Below are positions 6,007 through 60,520 of a DNA stretch of 64,000 nt, in pieces; the first letter of the stretch is position 1; each line of letters begins with the position of its first letter. A model generated the notes under the pieces. The model saw nothing but the letters and a program-made list of their open reading frames with translations, was not told the origin of the DNA and did not search any database. Made by a program: the position numbers and the translations under genes. Source of the stretch: Lachnospiraceae bacterium (lineage in GTDB: Bacteria; Bacillota; Clostridia; Lachnospirales; Lachnospiraceae); NCBI GenBank assembly GCA_024683645.1, contig JAIKYA010000075.1, positions 1 to 64,000 of the forward strand, written 5' to 3'.

Positions 6007-7089
6007 TTATTTATTCTCAGTCTCAAACTTCTTCATGAACTCAACCAGAGCCTTAACACCCTCGATAGGCATAGCATTGTAGATACTTGCTCTCATGCCG
6101 CCCACGCTTCTGTGGCCCTTAAGGTTCTCAAAGCCTGCAGCTTTTGACTCCTTAACGAACTTGGCATCCAGTTCTTCATTACCGGTAACGAAAGGCACGT
6201 TCATGAGTGATCTGTCTTTTGCTACGACAGTTCCCTTGAAAAGTGAACTCTCATCAAGGAAATCATAGAGGATCTTGGCCTTCTCTTCGTTGCGCTGCTT
6301 CATTGCCTCAAGGCCGCCCATCTTCTGTATCCATTTGAATACCTTGCCGCAGATGTAAATACCGTATGCGGGAGGTGTATTGTAAAGAGACTGTGCATCT
6401 GCATGAGTCTTATACTTCAGCATGGTCGGTGTGCCGGGAAGCACATCTTCGGTGATCAGATCTTTTTTCATAATAACAATGACAACACCTGCAGGTCCGA
6501 TATTCTTCTGTACGCCGCCGTATACCACACCGTACTTTGTCACATCCATGGGCTCGCTTAAGAAGCAGGATGAAACATCGGATACAAGAGTCTTACCCTT
6601 CGTATTGGGCAGGGTCTTGAACTTGGTACCGTAAATAGTATTGTTCTCGCAGATGTAGACATAGTCAGCATCGGGAGATATGGGCAGATCCGAGCAGTCG
6701 GGGATATATGAGAAAGTCTTATCCTCGCTGGATGCGATCTTGTTTGCCTTACCGAAAAGCTGTGCTTCCTGGTATGCTTTCTTTGCCCACTGGCCGGTTA
6801 CGATGTAATCAGCCACTTTATTCTTCATAAGGTTCATGGGGATCATTGCGAACTGCTGGCTCGCACCGCCCTGCAGGAACATTACCTCATAGTCATCGGG
6901 TATGTTAAGAAGACTTCTCAGATCAGCCTCAGCTGTTTTGATGATATCATCATAAACCTTAGATCGATGACTCATCTCCATAACGGACATACCACATCCT
7001 CTGTAGTCCATCATTTCATCTGCTGCTTCCCTTAAGACCTCTTCCGGCAGTACGGCCGGACCTGCGGAAAAATTATAAACTCTTCCCAT
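6007..7089 (-). CDS. serC: Phosphoserine aminotransferase
   Basis: MGRVYNFSAGPAVLPEEVL..., MSVMEMSHRSK, GVQKNIGPAG; start likely at internal Met (ORF opens at 7104). Confidence 0.95.
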   Translation of the reverse strand: MGRVYNFSAGPAVLPEEVLREAADEMMDYRGCGMSVMEMSHRSKVYDDIIKTAEADLRSLLNIPDDYEVMFLQGGASQQFAMIPMNLMKNKVADYIVTGQWAKKAYQEAQLFGKANKIASSEDKTFSYIPDCSDLPISPDADYVYICENNTIYGTKFKTLPNTKGKTLVSDVSSCFLSEPMDVTKYGVVYGGVQKNIGPAGVVIVIMKKDLITEDVLPGTPTMLKYKTHADAQSLYNTPPAYGIYICGKVFKWIQKMGGLEAMKQRNEEKAKILYDFLDESSLFKGTVVAKDRSLMNVPFVTGNEELDAKFVKESKAAGFENLKGHRSVGGMRASIYNAMPIEGVKALVEFMKKFETENK

Positions 7090-7130
7090 TTCCTTATCCT
7101 CCAATTGTTATTCAGGGACTTTCCCCTTTT

Positions 7131-7146
7131 ATCTGTCAAAACAGAT
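7131..7146. promoter_or_regulatory. Perfect palindrome ATCTGT-CAAA-ACAGAT near the inferred serC start site (operator candidate)
   Basis: Sequence atctgtcaaaacagat directly downstream of the serC promoter. Confidence 0.45.
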
Positions 7147-7150
7147 ATTG

Positions 7151-7179
7151 ATTATATACATTTTTTAGGATAACGTCAA
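7151..7179 (-). promoter_or_regulatory. Sigma-A type promoter for serC-serA
   Basis: Minus strand TTGACG-17 nt-TATAAT. Confidence 0.8.
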
Positions 7180-7206
7180 GGAGGGAGAATAGATTATGCG
7201 GCTATG

Positions 7207-7368
7207 ATTTTTGGTATTAAAAGGTCAAATGGGCATACGATCTTCGATCGTATGAAATATGCTGCACAAAAAATCGTCGCGGCAAGCTGGCTTGCCAGAG
7301 CGATTTTTCGTGCAGCATATACAAGCAGCAAAGCTGCTTGGGCCCATTTGACCAGTGTTATTAAAAAT
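7207..7368. repeat. Multi-branched (cloverleaf-like) inverted-repeat element
   Basis: Outer stem ggtcaaatgggc/gcccatttgacc (7223-7234/7342-7353) enclosing hairpins at 7234-7254, 7257-7320 and 7322-7340. Confidence 0.85.
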
Positions 7369-7369
7369 C

Positions 7370-10300
7370 TCACTTCACCAGGCTTTTGATCTCCGCCGCT
7401 CTGATAGTAAATTTGGATATTATTACCCCCGCATACTTATCGTTCTTCGGGACAAGTATCATATACGCGGTTCCTTTTCGATCATTATCCGTATAGATGA
7501 TATTGAAGTTTCGCTCTATCTCGGCTTCATCATCTATTACGATCTCTTTGCTTACCTTGATCCTGAAATCCTTACCGGGGATAAGGGTGACGTCCTCATC
7601 ACGCCCCTCATAATCCTGCTTATCAGCGCCCTTATTGTAGACGATCTTTGCCTTATTAACATCAATCCCCTTTGAAACAATATTGTAGCTTGCGCTTATC
7701 TCGATCTTCTCGTAATTCTTTTCTTTCGAGCTCACAGATAGCTCCAGTCCCGCAACAGGACCTTCTATCTTATCCTTATAAGGGTAAACCATACGGTATT
7801 CTTTCACATCCACCAGCGAACTGCCCAAGGTCACAACTACCTTAGGCTTATATTTCCCGGGTTTTATATAAGCGATATCACCGGCATAGACTCTTGCGTT
7901 CTGCAGGCTTTGTTTGTTTATCTTATATTCAAGCACAGGATAAGACGAACCCTTATAATTTCCCTTAAAAGTAAGCTTTATCTTTGCAGTGCCGCATTTC
8001 TTATACTTACTGTAGCTGTATTTTATATCTTTCCCTTCCTTAAGGACTTCGCCGGTGGCCTTGCATTTAATGCTTATATCTTCCGGCTTAGCCCCGCCTC
8101 TCTGATAAGTCACCTCTCTTTTATAGCTGATATCAAAAGCATCTGTTCCTTTAACCTTACAGGGTTTTATTCTGAAACTCTTTTTCACCACGCCATGATA
8201 TTCACCTGTACCGCAGATTATCATTTTAACAGTACCTGCATTGATATTTGAAGAATAACTTACGGTATAAGAAGCATTTCTTCCGTTCTTATCACTGACT
8301 ATCAGCTCACTGCCGTTTTTGAGCTTTTTCTCCTTCCCGTCATAAACCAGTTCCGGAAGATCCAGCTTAACTTTTATCGTATTTGTTTTATAATCCCCGG
8401 CACTCTGTACTATCAGATTTCCGCTTATCTCACCGCAGTAATTTCCTATGCCCCTGAAGGATACGCTGCCTTCTTTAGCTTCACAGCTGTAATCATTGTT
8501 TTTCTTAAGCTTTCTGCCTTTATATACCAGTGTCGGATCTGCCTTGGCCTCATAGCCTTCTTTTACACAGAGATTTCCCACAGTCACATATTTCAGATCT
8601 GCGCGGTCGATGACAAAATCCAGCCTGTAGGATCCTATCATATTCCCTTTGCCCTTTATCACCGCGTAAGCCGTTCTTCCGCTCATTTCGAAAGCCTTTA
8701 GATTATTAACGTACTTCAGACTGTAATCAACGCCCTCCGTCAGAAGTTTACGGTTATCATATACCCTGACCTCCGGAGTAAGCTTCTCTCCGCTGTATAC
8801 CGCGTGCCACAGACCGTTAGCATCTTTATACATGCAGTCGGCATAGAAGCTTGCATAGAAGCCGTTTACACTTACGCTGTCTTTATCCTCAGGCTTGTCT
8901 GCCTCATTTCCGCTGGGAGTTGAAGGCTCGATATCAGGCGTAACGGGATCATTATCCGAATCAGGTACGACTTCCTTCAGTTTCCACTGTGCATAGAGTG
9001 TCACATCCCTTGTGATAGCCTGGGCTATGTCATATTCCTCCCCGCCTTCTTTAGCCGTAAACCAGCCAACAAAATCATAGCCGGCTCTAAGCGGGGTGTA
9101 TTTTGAAGGATCCTTCAGACGGCTCAAAGCATTGTAGGTAATGGCCTTTCCTTTAGTGGAACCGTCGGCAAACTCTCCGCCGTTAGGAAATAGTGTAAGT
9201 TTATATCGTTTTAATTTCCAGCCTGCATAGATATCACTGCCTTTTCCGGTATCAAACAGTTCCTCCTCTTCTATCAGTTGATTGGCACTACAGCTTTCAT
9301 TTTTATACCAGCCGGTGAAATCATAGTGTTCAAGTACAGGTATCTCAAAAGCCTCATAATAAGGCTGACCTTCATACATCTGCTCAGTCCTTGATACACT
9401 GCTATCAGCAAACGTCCCCTTTCCCGAATGGGCCGTTACCGGATATTTATCAAGTTCCCTCCATTTAGCGCAGAACACACAGCTGTTATCGCTGACTGTG
9501 ACATGAGAAAGATCTTCGAGATATACGCGGTTTTCACTCAGGGCATACCAGCCCTCAAATGCATAGCCTTTTCTTACCGGCGTCTCTGCCAGCAGCTTGG
9601 CTTTTGCGTCCTCATTCTGATATACGCTTATCAGCTTCTTTCCGCCTTCCGCATAATTCATCGATAAGGTCACGTTACAGGTGGTTCTCGCAGAAGAAAG
9701 ATCATAGGCCGAAGTATTATACACAAGTACGTCGTCGTCATAAAGCGACATAGTCAGATAATCATAATAGTAGTTGTATTCACAATAGTAAGAATATGTC
9801 GTATATGCAGGATCACCGTTACTCTTTTTCGGTATACTCAGAGATTTATCCGTTCTGTATTCGGCACCACCCATAAAATTCCGGGCATTATCAGCACGTG
9901 AGTTCGTTATATCCACCAGATATGATTTACCGTCCTCCATCAGCACGTTGTTCCACATATGTTGTCCGGAAGAACTTGTAAGAAAACCGCTTACCAGATA
10001 GCAGTTCACATCACCTGCAAAGGAACTTAAGTCGCAGAGGAACTTAAAGGCCTTGGAAAAGCCCTCACACACAACCTTCGTGGACGGATCGCCGTCAAAT
10101 ACATGTATCATCTGCCAGGGATCACCGTAAGGAGTCCCGGATGTCAGGGCTGCGTTGTTATACTGTGAATATCCCTGTATCAGTGTCTTATATGCATTTA
10201 ACTTGGCGTAATCACTTGAAACACTCTCTGCCACGCGCACAACATCCTCAGCTGCCCTGGCAGCGGATTCCCCGGCTTTTACGGCAAGTGTTGTATTAAA

Positions 10301-15602: not shown

Positions 15603-15932
15603 TTATTTGTCCGCCTTTTCTACCTGTGCTATGGCGCTCTTCCTCATGGGAATGCGGCAGTTCTTATTGCTTCCGAACTCGACGATAACATCTTCTTCGG
15701 TTATATCTATAAGCACACCGTAGAAGCCGCTTGTGGTCACTACCACATCACCGACTTCCATATCAGCCAGCATGGCTTCAACTCTCTTCTGTTCCTTCTT
15801 CTGGGGTTTGATCATCAGAAAATAGAAAATCGCAAGCATAAGGACTATGGAAATGATATAGGAAAATCCGAGTCCGCCTGTCATGCCGGCATTTGTGCTT
15901 GCATCTCCGGTAAGTAAAATAAATAAATCCAT
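15603..15932 (-). CDS. yajC: Preprotein translocase subunit YajC
   Basis: Single TM then [37 protein letters not shown]. Confidence 0.92.
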
Positions 15933-16003
15933 TTTGTTTCTTCCCTTCTTTTAATTTATTACGGAGCCGGAACGGTATGCCGCCCTGATTCCGTCAAACT
16001 GCT

Positions 16004-16032
16004 ATTTTATCAGAAATCCCGCAAGCATGCAA
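16004..16032 (-). promoter_or_regulatory. Promoter candidate for yajC-leuB-ilvD-ilvB
   Basis: Minus strand TTGCAT-17 nt-TAAAAT. Confidence 0.6.
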
Positions 16033-16037
16033 GGATA

Positions 16038-17168
16038 TCATTCACCGGCAAGGTCCTTAAGTTTTTGGTTTTTAAACTCCTTATAACGCCCTTCATCTAT
16101 GGCATCCCTTATCTCTTCCATCAGATGGTTGTAGAAATAAAGGTTATGAAGCACCCCGAGCCGCATTCCCAGCATCTCTTTAGCTTTCAGCAGATGCCTT
16201 ATATATGCCCTGGAATATCTTCTGCAGGCAGGACAGCCGCAGCCCTCCTCTATGGGGCGGTCATCCTTCTCATATTTGGAATTCATCAGGTTCAGCTTGC
16301 CGTGATTCGTATACATATGGGCATGTCTGCCGTTTCTGGTGGGATAAACGCAGTCAAAGAAGTCCACACCGCGGTCCACGGCCTCGAGTATATTGGCCGG
16401 AGTACCAACACCCATCAGATATACAGGCTTATTCTCAGGCAGGTAGGGCACCGTTTCGTCCAGTATGTAATACATCTGCTCATGACTCTCACCTACTGCC
16501 AGTCCGCCTATGGCATAACCCGGCAGATCAAACTCGGAGATCCGCTTTGCATGCTCTATCCTTATATCAGCATAAATAGCGCCCTGGTTGATACCGAAAA
16601 GCAGCTGTTCTTTATTCACCGTATCGGGTCTGCCGTTAAGCTCCGCCATTTCCTTAATGCAGCGTTCCAGCCATCTGGTGGTACGCTCCACACTTGGTCT
16701 TACATATTCCCTCTCAGCCAGAGCCGGCGGGCACTCATCAAAAGCCATTGCAATGGTGGAACCGAGATTTGACTGTATCTGCATGCTCTCCTCGGGCCCC
16801 ATGAATATCTTCCTGCCGTCGATATGGGAATTGAAGGTCACACCCTCTTCCTTTATCTTCCTTAATCCTGCAAGTGAGAATACCTGAAAGCCGCCCGAAT
16901 CTGTAAGTATAGGCCTGTTCCAGCTCATGAACTTATGGAGACCGCCCATTTCTTTGATCAGCTCATCACCTGTCCTAACATGCAGATGATAGGTATTGGA
17001 AAGCTCCACCTGGGTACCTATCTCTTCAAGATCCGCAGTGGATACAGCGCCCTTTATGGCTCCTACCGTACCTACATTCATAAAGACCGGAGTCTGGATC
17101 GTGCCATGCACCGTCTCCATCTCCGCCCTTTTCGCTCTACCGTCTCTTTTTAATACCGTATACTTCAT
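16038..17168 (-). CDS. tgt: Queuine/preQ1 tRNA-guanine transglycosylase
   Basis: MNVGTVGAIKGAVSTADLEEIG, TDSGGFQVFSLAGLRKI, GVDFFDCVYPTRNGRHAHMYT, CGCPAC zinc site. Confidence 0.96.
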   Translation of the reverse strand: MKYTVLKRDGRAKRAEMETVHGTIQTPVFMNVGTVGAIKGAVSTADLEEIGTQVELSNTYHLHVRTGDELIKEMGGLHKFMSWNRPILTDSGGFQVFSLAGLRKIKEEGVTFNSHIDGRKIFMGPEESMQIQSNLGSTIAMAFDECPPALAEREYVRPSVERTTRWLERCIKEMAELNGRPDTVNKEQLLFGINQGAIYADIRIEHAKRISEFDLPGYAIGGLAVGESHEQMYYILDETVPYLPENKPVYLMGVGTPANILEAVDRGVDFFDCVYPTRNGRHAHMYTNHGKLNLMNSKYEKDDRPIEEGCGCPACRRYSRAYIRHLLKAKEMLGMRLGVLHNLYFYNHLMEEIRDAIDEGRYKEFKNQKLKDLAGE

Positions 17169-17186
17169 ACTATCCTTTCTCTAAGC

Positions 17187-18368
17187 CTATACCCTTGTAA
17201 TATACACCATAGTAATATCATCCGCCTGATCCGCTTCCCCCGCAAATTCATCTATTGCCTTATACAGCTTGTCCACCAAAGCTTCCGGCTCCGCAACAAG
17301 ACCCAGATTATCATTCAGAGCCTTCTCAAGTCTTTCATTCCCGAACATTTCCCACTTGCTGTTAGTCGCCTCGTTGACTCCGTCGGTATAGATATACATA
17401 CTGTCTCCCGGCTCCAGCGTCAGTTCCTGCACCCTGTACTTTATGCCCTCATATATGCCGAAAGCAATATTGGTCTTCACCTTCGGCGACGAGAACTCTC
17501 CTCCCGCTTTGCTTATAAAAGGACTTCCGTGAGCAGCATTGATAAACTTAAGTTCATTTGTCTTCAGATCCAGCACGCAGAGGAAGACGGTAACAAACAT
17601 CTCTTCTTCATTTTTATAACAGAGCTGGTCATTTGTCCTTATGGCGACCTCATCAAGGGGCAGCCCCAGGGTAGCATAATTCCTGATATGTATCTTAGCC
17701 ATGCTCATAAACATTGCAGCCGGAATGCCCTTACCGGAAACATCGGCGATAAGAAAACACAGATGATCGTCATCGATCATAAATACATCATAGAAGTCCC
17801 CGCCCATTTCTTTTGCGGGTCTTGTACAGGCATACATATTTATATTCTCAAGTGCATTGAAGGCCGAAAAATCATGTTCAAGTATGCCGTCCTGTATCCT
17901 TGCCGCCACGGACAGCTCTGCCCGCACCCTCTCCTGTTCTTTTACCAGATGGGTCGTTCTGTGATAAAGCATGGTCATAAAGGAACCGTAGATCTTCCTG
18001 TTCACGCTTCCCAGCTCTTCAAACAGTTCCTTTGATATATTTGCACAGACCACATCCGTAAGAGCCCTTACAGTCGCTCCCCTGGGCTGGTCGTTCATCA
18101 GTCCCAGTTCGCCTACTATATCACCCTTGGACAAAGTAGTATTGATCCTGCTACCGTCTTTAGACAATACATCACAGGTACCGGACAGTATGATATACAT
18201 TCCGTCCTCGCAGTCGGCTCCGTAGGTCACCACATCCTGCCCCTCGGGAATGCTTACTTCCTTCATTGAAGAAAGCAGGAGTCTCACACCTTCCGGTATT
18301 TCCTTGCCTTCCTCTATCTCAAAGAATTTCCGTATTGACGGCAGTTCATATAAACGTTCAATATCCAT
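17187..18368 (-). CDS. Cyclic nucleotide-binding domain plus SpoIIE/PP2C-type phosphatase
   Basis: cNMP-like GDIVGELGLMNDQPRGATVRAL; phosphatase motifs GGDFYDVFMIDDDHLCFLIADVSGKGIPAAMFM, TDGVNEA, DDITMVYI. Confidence 0.88.
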   Translation of the reverse strand: MDIERLYELPSIRKFFEIEEGKEIPEGVRLLLSSMKEVSIPEGQDVVTYGADCEDGMYIILSGTCDVLSKDGSRINTTLSKGDIVGELGLMNDQPRGATVRALTDVVCANISKELFEELGSVNRKIYGSFMTMLYHRTTHLVKEQERVRAELSVAARIQDGILEHDFSAFNALENINMYACTRPAKEMGGDFYDVFMIDDDHLCFLIADVSGKGIPAAMFMSMAKIHIRNYATLGLPLDEVAIRTNDQLCYKNEEEMFVTVFLCVLDLKTNELKFINAAHGSPFISKAGGEFSSPKVKTNIAFGIYEGIKYRVQELTLEPGDSMYIYTDGVNEATNSKWEMFGNERLEKALNDNLGLVAEPEALVDKLYKAIDEFAGEADQADDITMVYITRV

Positions 18369-30125: not shown

Positions 30126-30154
30126 AAAATCTGCTGTTTGTATTTCCGTGGAGC

Positions 30155-30291
30155 AAAGCGTTCCGCTTGCGGAACGCTAGCGCCGAGCGCGGTTGCCGAA
30201 GGCAACATTTTCCTCTCGCGCGAGTGCGCATCCCGCCCGGAGGGCTTTTTGCTTTATGGAAATTCCAGAGGAATTTCCTATAAAGCAAAAA
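30155..30291. repeat. Structured intergenic repeat element, copy 1
   Basis: Hairpins agcgttccgc/gcggaacgct, gttgcc-gaa-ggcaac, gccc-gga-gggc, and gctttatggaaattcc/ggaatttcctataaagc; about 105 nt nearly identical to 60411-60517. Confidence 0.88.
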
Positions 30292-30297
30292 CAGCTT

Positions 30298-31500
30298 TCA
30301 GTTTTTCTTCATCAGTACTTCCATTCCCTCGTTAAGCCCTTCTACCGTAAGCGGCAGCATGGGAAAGATCTCTTTTATGGCCGTCTCGGCTTCACGCCAG
30401 GGTGCCGCTCCCGGGGCCATCTTCGGATTCATCCAGACTATCCTCTTATATTTCTGTTTAAGCCTTATCAGCCATTCATAACCGGAATAACCGCCGTTGG
30501 GGCCGCGATAGTTACCGTCCTTGGCATACAGTTCCTCCGGCGCCATGGCCGCATCTCCTACTATTATTACTTTAAAATCCTTATCCAGGTTTTTGAACAT
30601 CCACTCGGTTTCCACCCAGTTACCGTTCTCGCAGCCGGGATCGTTATATACATGGGAATATATGCAGTTATGGAAGTAATAAGTCTTTACTTCCTTATAA
30701 TGATTTGATTTATGTACCGACTGGAACAGCTCGTTTAAAAGATCACAGTAGGGTATCATGGTACCGCCGGAATCCATGAGAAGCAGCAGCTTAACCGTGT
30801 TTTTCCTGGGCTTGTCCATGACTATCTTCAGCACGCCGCCCTGTTCGCAGGTATCGTGCACCGTCCCGTCTATATCCAGTTCGGTCTTCGGTATATCGAG
30901 TTTTGTGGAAAACTGTCTGAGTTTTCTTAGTGCCGCCATAAACTGCCTGCCGGTAAGCACCCTGTCATCCCTGAAATCCCTGTATTTTCTGGCGCCTATG
31001 ACCTGGAAGGCACTCTGGTAGCCTGTCCCTCCGCCTACTCTTATCCCGCCGATATTACCGCCGGTATTGCCGAAAGAGGTCTTGCCCATCGTACCTATCC
31101 AGTAAGCTCCTCCGTTGTGCTCACTGTCCTGATCCTTTAGGCGCTGCTTGAACTTTTTCTCCACGTCATCCTTATCTATCTCAAAAGTCTCAACGGAGTT
31201 CAGATAATCCTTGTCCTCTTCGTGCAGCATATCGTTCATCTCAGGTTTGTCCAGCCATTTCAGCATCCGTTCCGTTACCCCCGGTTCATGCTGCATGGCC
31301 TTGAAGCACTCTTCAAAAGCCTGATCGTATTTATCATAATCGGTCTCGGAATGGACTACTATCGATCTGGCTATATAGTAAAACTTAGTGAGCGACGACT
31401 CGCACAGCCCCATATCAAGGGCGTTCTGCAATGTCAGCCACTCACTTAAGGTAACGCTTATCCCGTATTTGTTTAAGGCATTAAAGAAATTATTGAACAT
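30298..31500 (-). CDS. VWA-containing CoxE-like protein
   Basis: VKLLLLMDSGGTMIPYCDLLNELFQ, TYYFHNCIYSHVY; adjacent to MoxR ATPase. Confidence 0.85.
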   Translation of the reverse strand: MFNNFFNALNKYGISVTLSEWLTLQNALDMGLCESSLTKFYYIARSIVVHSETDYDKYDQAFEECFKAMQHEPGVTERMLKWLDKPEMNDMLHEEDKDYLNSVETFEIDKDDVEKKFKQRLKDQDSEHNGGAYWIGTMGKTSFGNTGGNIGGIRVGGGTGYQSAFQVIGARKYRDFRDDRVLTGRQFMAALRKLRQFSTKLDIPKTELDIDGTVHDTCEQGGVLKIVMDKPRKNTVKLLLLMDSGGTMIPYCDLLNELFQSVHKSNHYKEVKTYYFHNCIYSHVYNDPGCENGNWVETEWMFKNLDKDFKVIIVGDAAMAPEELYAKDGNYRGPNGGYSGYEWLIRLKQKYKRIVWMNPKMAPGAAPWREAETAIKEIFPMLPLTVEGLNEGMEVLMKKN

Positions 31501-60238: not shown

Positions 60239-60378
60239 GATAACCTCACTTCCGGCCACGCGTCACTTTTGACAAAACTTCGATTTCTCCCCTCATGTTA
60301 TATTATTATACACTACTATGCAAAAATTTCCAGTGTTATTTTTCTTTTATAAGCAATTTTTCCGGTATTACCATAAGA

Positions 60379-60517
60379 ATAGCATGTCGCTTGCGACATG
60401 CGAGCGCCTCGCGCGGTTGCCGCAGGCAACATTTTCCTCTCGCGCGAGTGCGCATCCCGCCCGGAGGGCTTTTTTGCTTTAAGGAAATTCCAGAGGAATT
60501 TCCTATAAAGAAAAAAT
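60379..60517. repeat. Structured intergenic repeat element, copy 2
   Basis: gcatgtcgc/gcgacatgc hairpin, gttgcc-gca-ggcaac, gccc-gga-gggc, ggaaattcc-aga-ggaatttcc; matches copy 1. Confidence 0.88.
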
Positions 60518-60520
60518 AAA

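Follow-up and report, generated by a model that had tools for sequence, protein, structure and literature searches.

A cloverleaf-folding intergenic repeat of Lachnospiraceae, best read as a new MITE-type family

Next to a surface-protein gene of a Lachnospiraceae bacterium, a first-pass annotation described a cloverleaf-like element of about 160 bp. Is the fold real, and how did it come to lie between the surface-protein gene and serC? We examined it within the window, which is the whole 64,000-nucleotide stretch of DNA analysed.

The cloverleaf is real and goes beyond chance. The annotated 12-bp outer stem (7223-7234 / 7342-7353) and its three arms are present at these coordinates. The four-way junction proposed for them is strongly supported; both the MFE and the centroid structure show it. 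More precisely, the RNA MFE of positions 7207-7368 is -82.7 kcal/mol, against -39.2 +/- 3.9 kcal/mol for 200 dinucleotide shuffles (z -11.3), none of which folds equally well. DNA energy parameters give the same branching as RNA for the window copy, on either strand.

The boundaries had to be redrawn. The unit common to other copies spans 7221-7355 (AAGGTCAAATGGGC...GCCCATTTGACC) instead of about 160 bp, and BLAST homology between copies ends at 7221 and 7355. The attttt/aaaaat extension of the outer stem is present, but it is flank and not common to the family. The open reading frame of the neighbouring surface-protein gene ends at 7370, 14 bp from the end of the shared core. The serC promoter (TTGACG-17-TATAAT, 7179-7151, minus strand) lies outside. 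The parts of the window copy are listed below; + orientation means that the CATACGATC arm comes first.

7221..7355, + strand: whole repeat copy (cloverleaf core); covariance-model match of 140.7 bits, model positions 1-133
7223..7234, + strand: outer stem, 5' side (GGTCAAATGGGC); MFE, helix 1 covaries in 17 copies
7235..7253, + strand: arm 1, ATACGATC-TTC-GATCGTAT; MFE, helix 2, cells paired 99.3%
7257..7320, + strand: long arm ATATGCTGCAC...GTGCAGCATAT with tip CAAGCTGGCTTG; MFE, helices 3 and 4
7322..7340, + strand: arm 3, CAAGCAGC-AAA-GCTGCTTG; MFE, helix 5
7342..7353, + strand: outer stem, 3' side (GCCCATTTGACC); MFE, helix 1 covaries in 17 copies

A stable stem just past a stop codon, with TTTT after the outer stem on the minus strand, would suit a transcription terminator of the surface-protein gene, perhaps a bidirectional one as the first-pass annotation suggested. 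However, a scan of window positions 6900-7700 for a GC-rich stem with a T-run gave 0 sites. Other copies are without T-tracts, and the orthologous gene pair in a sister species is without the element. Copies sit between tandem, divergent and convergent genes, and these mixed contexts are a poor fit to a dedicated terminator or leader role. We consider a terminator most improbable. A tRNA or tRNA-derived cloverleaf was rejected, with no ARAGORN or Rfam tRNA match. Likewise, Rfam at gathering and relaxed thresholds gave no family in the window, the best relaxed match being far under the cut-off.

The window fold belongs to an old repeat family of about 133 bp that is scattered through gut and rumen Lachnospiraceae. 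The search for other copies that had been proposed gave BLAST matches elsewhere in the window's own genome (G000) and many in a sister species of the same genus, the rumen MAG Lachnospiraceae bacterium Tb.RUG.144 (G013). With a covariance model built from 17 copies (alignment A1), we counted about 11 loci in G000 and about 18 in G013, relics included. These copies are interspersed, non-coding (no protein) and under ~500 bp. No cloverleaf came up in the 33 other genomes of the genus that were searched, only four of which have weak, unrelated-looking hairpins. When GTDB species genomes were scanned by pattern, possibly without the window genome's own records, only Tb.RUG.144 and the rumen MAG RUI374 (G051), which has four copies, matched. 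No copies were found in the viral contigs and plasmids searched.

Strong covariance-model matches occur in three further genera (G106, G226 and G184) of a 200-genome family sample. Sequence-only homology is strong for G106 and G051 and moderate for G226. The G184 cloverleaf falls just outside the inclusion threshold of that search, so its membership rests on the structure model. Members other than G184 have a common signature: CAAA(A/T)GG lies at the centre of the outer-stem motif, and the long arm has base TGCACA and tip GG.AAGC..GCTT.CC. The long arm is the most conserved portion across genera.

The site of the window copy is empty in the orthologous serC/surface-protein intergenic region of the sister species (G013:C120), and also on a second serC contig of the window genome (G000:C67). 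Likewise, the copy at G013:C127 is absent at G000:C166:96907-96940 and in five further aligned species. The junctions of the empty sites are not base-exact, because the flanks have diverged. A site that is empty in the sister species makes the window element an inserted interspersed repeat. The second contig deserves a separate remark. Its positions 15772-17847 hold a second serC and surface-protein locus in the same assembly, with a serC 89% identical to that of the window. The window MAG (5.75% contamination) may be a mixture of two strains or species.

Two cloverleaf sites are common to G000 and G013. At one (C111/C59), a deletion of about 80 bp, from the arm 1 loop to the arm 3 loop, has shortened the G000 copy. 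At the other (C32/C56), the side arms are swapped and the orientation of the long arm is unchanged. Relics with one or two arms are found at G000:C19, G013:C32 (position 23255) and G013:C132. The empty sites and the rearranged shared sites together indicate a family that moves, or once moved, and then decays by hairpin-directed rearrangement.

The fold is conserved while the sequence changes. In the 17-copy alignment A1, 95.7% of cells are paired, and 22 of the 50 pairs show changes on both sides; none of 500 shuffles and no slid control came close to these double changes. With 53 copies, two or more Watson-Crick types are seen at 47 of the 50 pairs, and three or more at 45; these copies were aligned by fitting them to the model, so the count leans toward structure. 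Unconstrained MFE folding is independent of the model and gives a three-branched junction on both strands in 49 of the 53 copies. The first-pass annotation would have given up the element if structured homologues were absent or the fold unbranched; the homologues number in the dozens, and these 49 are three-armed. The length is 129-135 bp in 50 of the 53, and the median fold z is -11.

Such strong covariation could point to an RNA or UTR module with a function, one that is transcribed as a 5' leader, as a 3' end or between cistrons and that stabilises or processes mRNA, with selection on the RNA fold and mobility as a secondary matter. Several G013 copies do lie directly 5' of ribosome-binding sites or just past stop codons, and in Bacillus cereus the bcr repeats often form part of mRNAs (PMC3446304). 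However, a single selected RNA strand predicts G-U pairs greatly above A-C mismatches. We counted 69 against 52 in the 53 copies, and 44 against 49-52 without two G-U-rich columns. G-U is thus not clearly in excess, as opposed to what a single-strand RNA fold should leave, which argues for a constraint at the DNA level or one that is strand-neutral. The fold seems to be kept at the DNA level or without strand preference, although a fold used equally as RNA from either strand would give the same picture. Orientation and gene context are also variable, and sites are empty in close relatives. An RNA module is unlikely on these grounds.

The pairing might also be mutational. Template switching in hairpins during replication would keep the arms palindromic and flip or swap them, with no selection. 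Loops are indeed found in either orientation, as GAA and as TTC, some copies carry the long arm in reverse, the orthologous site described above has swapped side arms, and deletions are arm-sized. These inversions and exchanges mean that palindrome correction by template switching could give part of the covariation. Nevertheless, the three-armed layout and the 129-135 bp length hold across genera, and neutral correction alone should keep neither the outer stem around three arms nor the length. As a full explanation, it appears doubtful.

The clearest evidence on mobility comes from the relative G226. There the repeat reaches past the cloverleaf to the ends TTGAGTTTCC...GGAAACTCAA and measures 192-194 bp overall. 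The 12-base terminus occurs 54 times exactly in G226, against 0 for a reversed control pattern. We examined 19 TIR-bounded elements, 18 in G226 and one in G106, for target duplications. Flanking direct repeats with at least 8 of 9 matching bases border 16 of the 19, compared with 5 of 342 mismatched flank pairs; the duplications of the G226 MITE are 8-9 bp. A 1570-bp insertion sequence of G226 has these same ends, carries an open DDE_Tnp_1 reading frame and is flanked by its own duplication. Shared termini, duplications and a matching insertion sequence make the cloverleaf the body of a G226 MITE, and we infer that the 1570-bp element mobilises it in trans. Deletion derivatives of 168 bp and 124 bp have perfect target duplications too. 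Either the full cloverleaf is not strictly needed for transposition, or the arms were lost later.

The G226 transposase resembles IS4-clade insertion sequences (PF01609) in its DDE_Tnp_1 domain and in the duplication of about 9 bp. It belongs to that clade, yet it scores under every curated NCBIfam IS4/IS701 cut-off, so the exact family is unsettled.

Two further elements were seen among these relatives. L275 534-594 (G226:C1) is a TIR-to-TIR mini-element of about 60 bp of the G226 MITE, without the cloverleaf. L268 770-1274 (G106:C16) is a 505-bp TIR-bounded element with ends as in the G226 insertion sequence and an 8/9 target duplication; it contains a very large nested inverted repeat, with an MFE of -233 kcal/mol.

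The window lineage is less explicit. The suspicion of mobility is borne out here by the empty sites, and in G226 also by TIRs, target duplications and the matching insertion sequence. The target-site duplication looked for at the window copy did not hold up, as the 8-bp TATTAAAA repeat beside it is within chance. Among the G000 and G013 copies, duplications are not above the control and ends of the TTGAGTTTCC type are lacking; an autonomous partner for the lineage was not seen. The inverted ends of the window copy are the 12-bp outer stem, whereas G226 relatives carry separate TTGAGTTTCC termini. The G000 and G013 copies do show weak conservation for about 14 bases beyond the stem, with a weak consensus TATGNTGYTAAGG on both sides that may be a decayed terminus. 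A perfect TATAAT stands 6-8 nt beyond three element boundaries, and we make no promoter claim from it because of this possible decayed terminus. Copies of the window lineage look ancient.

Copies without duplications and strand-symmetric palindromes, which fit single-strand DNA folding, might instead suggest a REP/REPIN-type element moved as folded single-stranded DNA by a Y1 (RAYT) transposase. Y1_Tnp genes are present in both carrier genomes, G000 and G013, and absent from G006. However, these Y1 genes are bordered by different repeats and have no cloverleaf ends, so RAYT was rejected as the mobiliser. The G226 relatives use a DDE route, and REPs are only 20-40 bp (PMC3733652). This route is very unlikely. 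The Y1 loci themselves are RAYT-like transposase genes, lying between near-identical TATTGCGCGTGAGTGAATCTCACGCGCAAT palindromes at L032 1450-2184 (G000:C46) and bordered by GGGGACGGTTC-type repeats at L033 1450-2220 (G013:C2).

The best reading is a new repeat family of MITE type whose conserved cloverleaf core is unusual. We consider it probable that this is an old non-autonomous repeat with a cloverleaf body of ~131-135 bp, shared by several Lachnospiraceae genera, and that its copies were placed between genes by a transposase that recognised the element ends in trans. The relatives in G226 and the empty sites point to such an origin for the window copy, and its lineage would likewise have been dispersed by a DDE transposase since lost or unrecognised. 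Interspersion, inverted ends and empty sites speak for counting the window lineage among the MITEs; duplications do not. The copy at this locus would be a fossil that is tolerated and serves no dedicated purpose. Its fold would be maintained mainly as a palindromic property of the DNA, alike on both strands, and decay would proceed by deletions that take out whole arms while the outer stem stays.

A further point goes against the MITE reading: plain DDE transposition should not need a conserved internal cloverleaf. The cloverleaf might be a selfish or functional module, older than any one transposase and carried by different systems because the folded DNA itself acts. The four-way junction would have persisted through several genera even as a large share of the stem sequence turned over. 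The carriers would be IS4-clade ends in G226, and other or no ends elsewhere. The folded DNA would be recognised, for example, by a junction-binding or replication-linked enzyme. We view such a module as a tentative and rather unlikely alternative.

Compared with bacterial MITEs (Correia/NEMIS, RUP, ERIC; PMC2229807), the cloverleaf repeats are similarly under 200 bp, non-coding, intergenic and strongly base-paired, and the G226 copies also have the TIRs, target duplications and matching insertion sequence. However, most of those MITEs are a single, armless stem-loop formed by pairing of the 5' and 3' ends (PMC2229807), whereas this family keeps three arms on an outer stem across genera. The repeats bcr1-bcr18 of the Bacillus cereus group, compared by description only, are likewise dispersed between genes and measure 100-400 bp; some have a conserved structure and resemble MITEs, and some are transcribed. 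They differ in being confined to another bacterial group, and bcr mobility is linked to TTTAT motifs. The Caulobacter CIR elements are likewise structured intergenic repeats with arms in the fold, but they consist of two arms and a linker with a GANTC motif, with no closed cloverleaf. REP/REPIN-RAYT systems also have palindromic intergenic repeats with complementary stem changes. Nevertheless, they are much shorter, and they are linked to Y1 transposases bordered by the same repeats, unlike the cloverleaf. Finally, the double-hairpin elements of fungal and algal mitochondria are very short, mobile and palindromic, and are defined by fold over sequence. They are organellar and usually have two hairpins; the likeness to the cloverleaf is a lead only and implies no kinship.

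In the open-access literature, no description was found of a cloverleaf together with a MITE. The usual description of a miniature mobile element in bacteria is a single long hairpin, whereas the conserved feature here is a three-armed junction. Strong covariation keeps this branched fold over several genera despite sequence change. It raises the question of what selects for a branched fold in such elements, and whether it acts in its DNA or its RNA form. The full, two-arm, one-arm and inverted-arm copies offer a natural series for studying how cells handle large palindromes. The family also flags intergenic insertions in rumen and gut bacteria that annotation has overlooked.

Other structured repeats were observed along the way. 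At L229 ~1043-1176 (G051:C13), a cloverleaf has an outer stem lengthened by additional, imperfect copies of the end and arm motifs of that same element (CCATTTGGCCGTATGACCATTTGAC), which suggests growth by duplication. Weak model matches in G002, G040, G020, G001, G061, G080, G146, G230, G158 and G180 were excluded from the count. These uncounted matches (G002, G040 and others) resemble different hairpin repeats with CAAGC..GCTTG in common. Very stable other hairpin repeats of the genus lie at L084 2798-2947 (G002:C15), L085 3022-3146 (G040:C3), L086 317-466 (G020:C71) and L087 1598-1756 (G001:C58), and some of them have the same CAAGC..GCTTG tip as the long arm of the cloverleaf.

The window itself holds a second structured repeat family, at 30141-30300 and 60376-60520. 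The first-pass annotation saw no similarity between the cloverleaf and these elements, and we saw none either. A core, GGTTGCCG.AGGCAACATTTTCCTCTCGCGCGAGTGCGCATCCCGCCCGGAGGGC, is common to the two copies, as is a strong AGGAAATTCCAGAGGAATTTCC hairpin. The sequence of their first hairpin differs between the copies, and it pairs in both.
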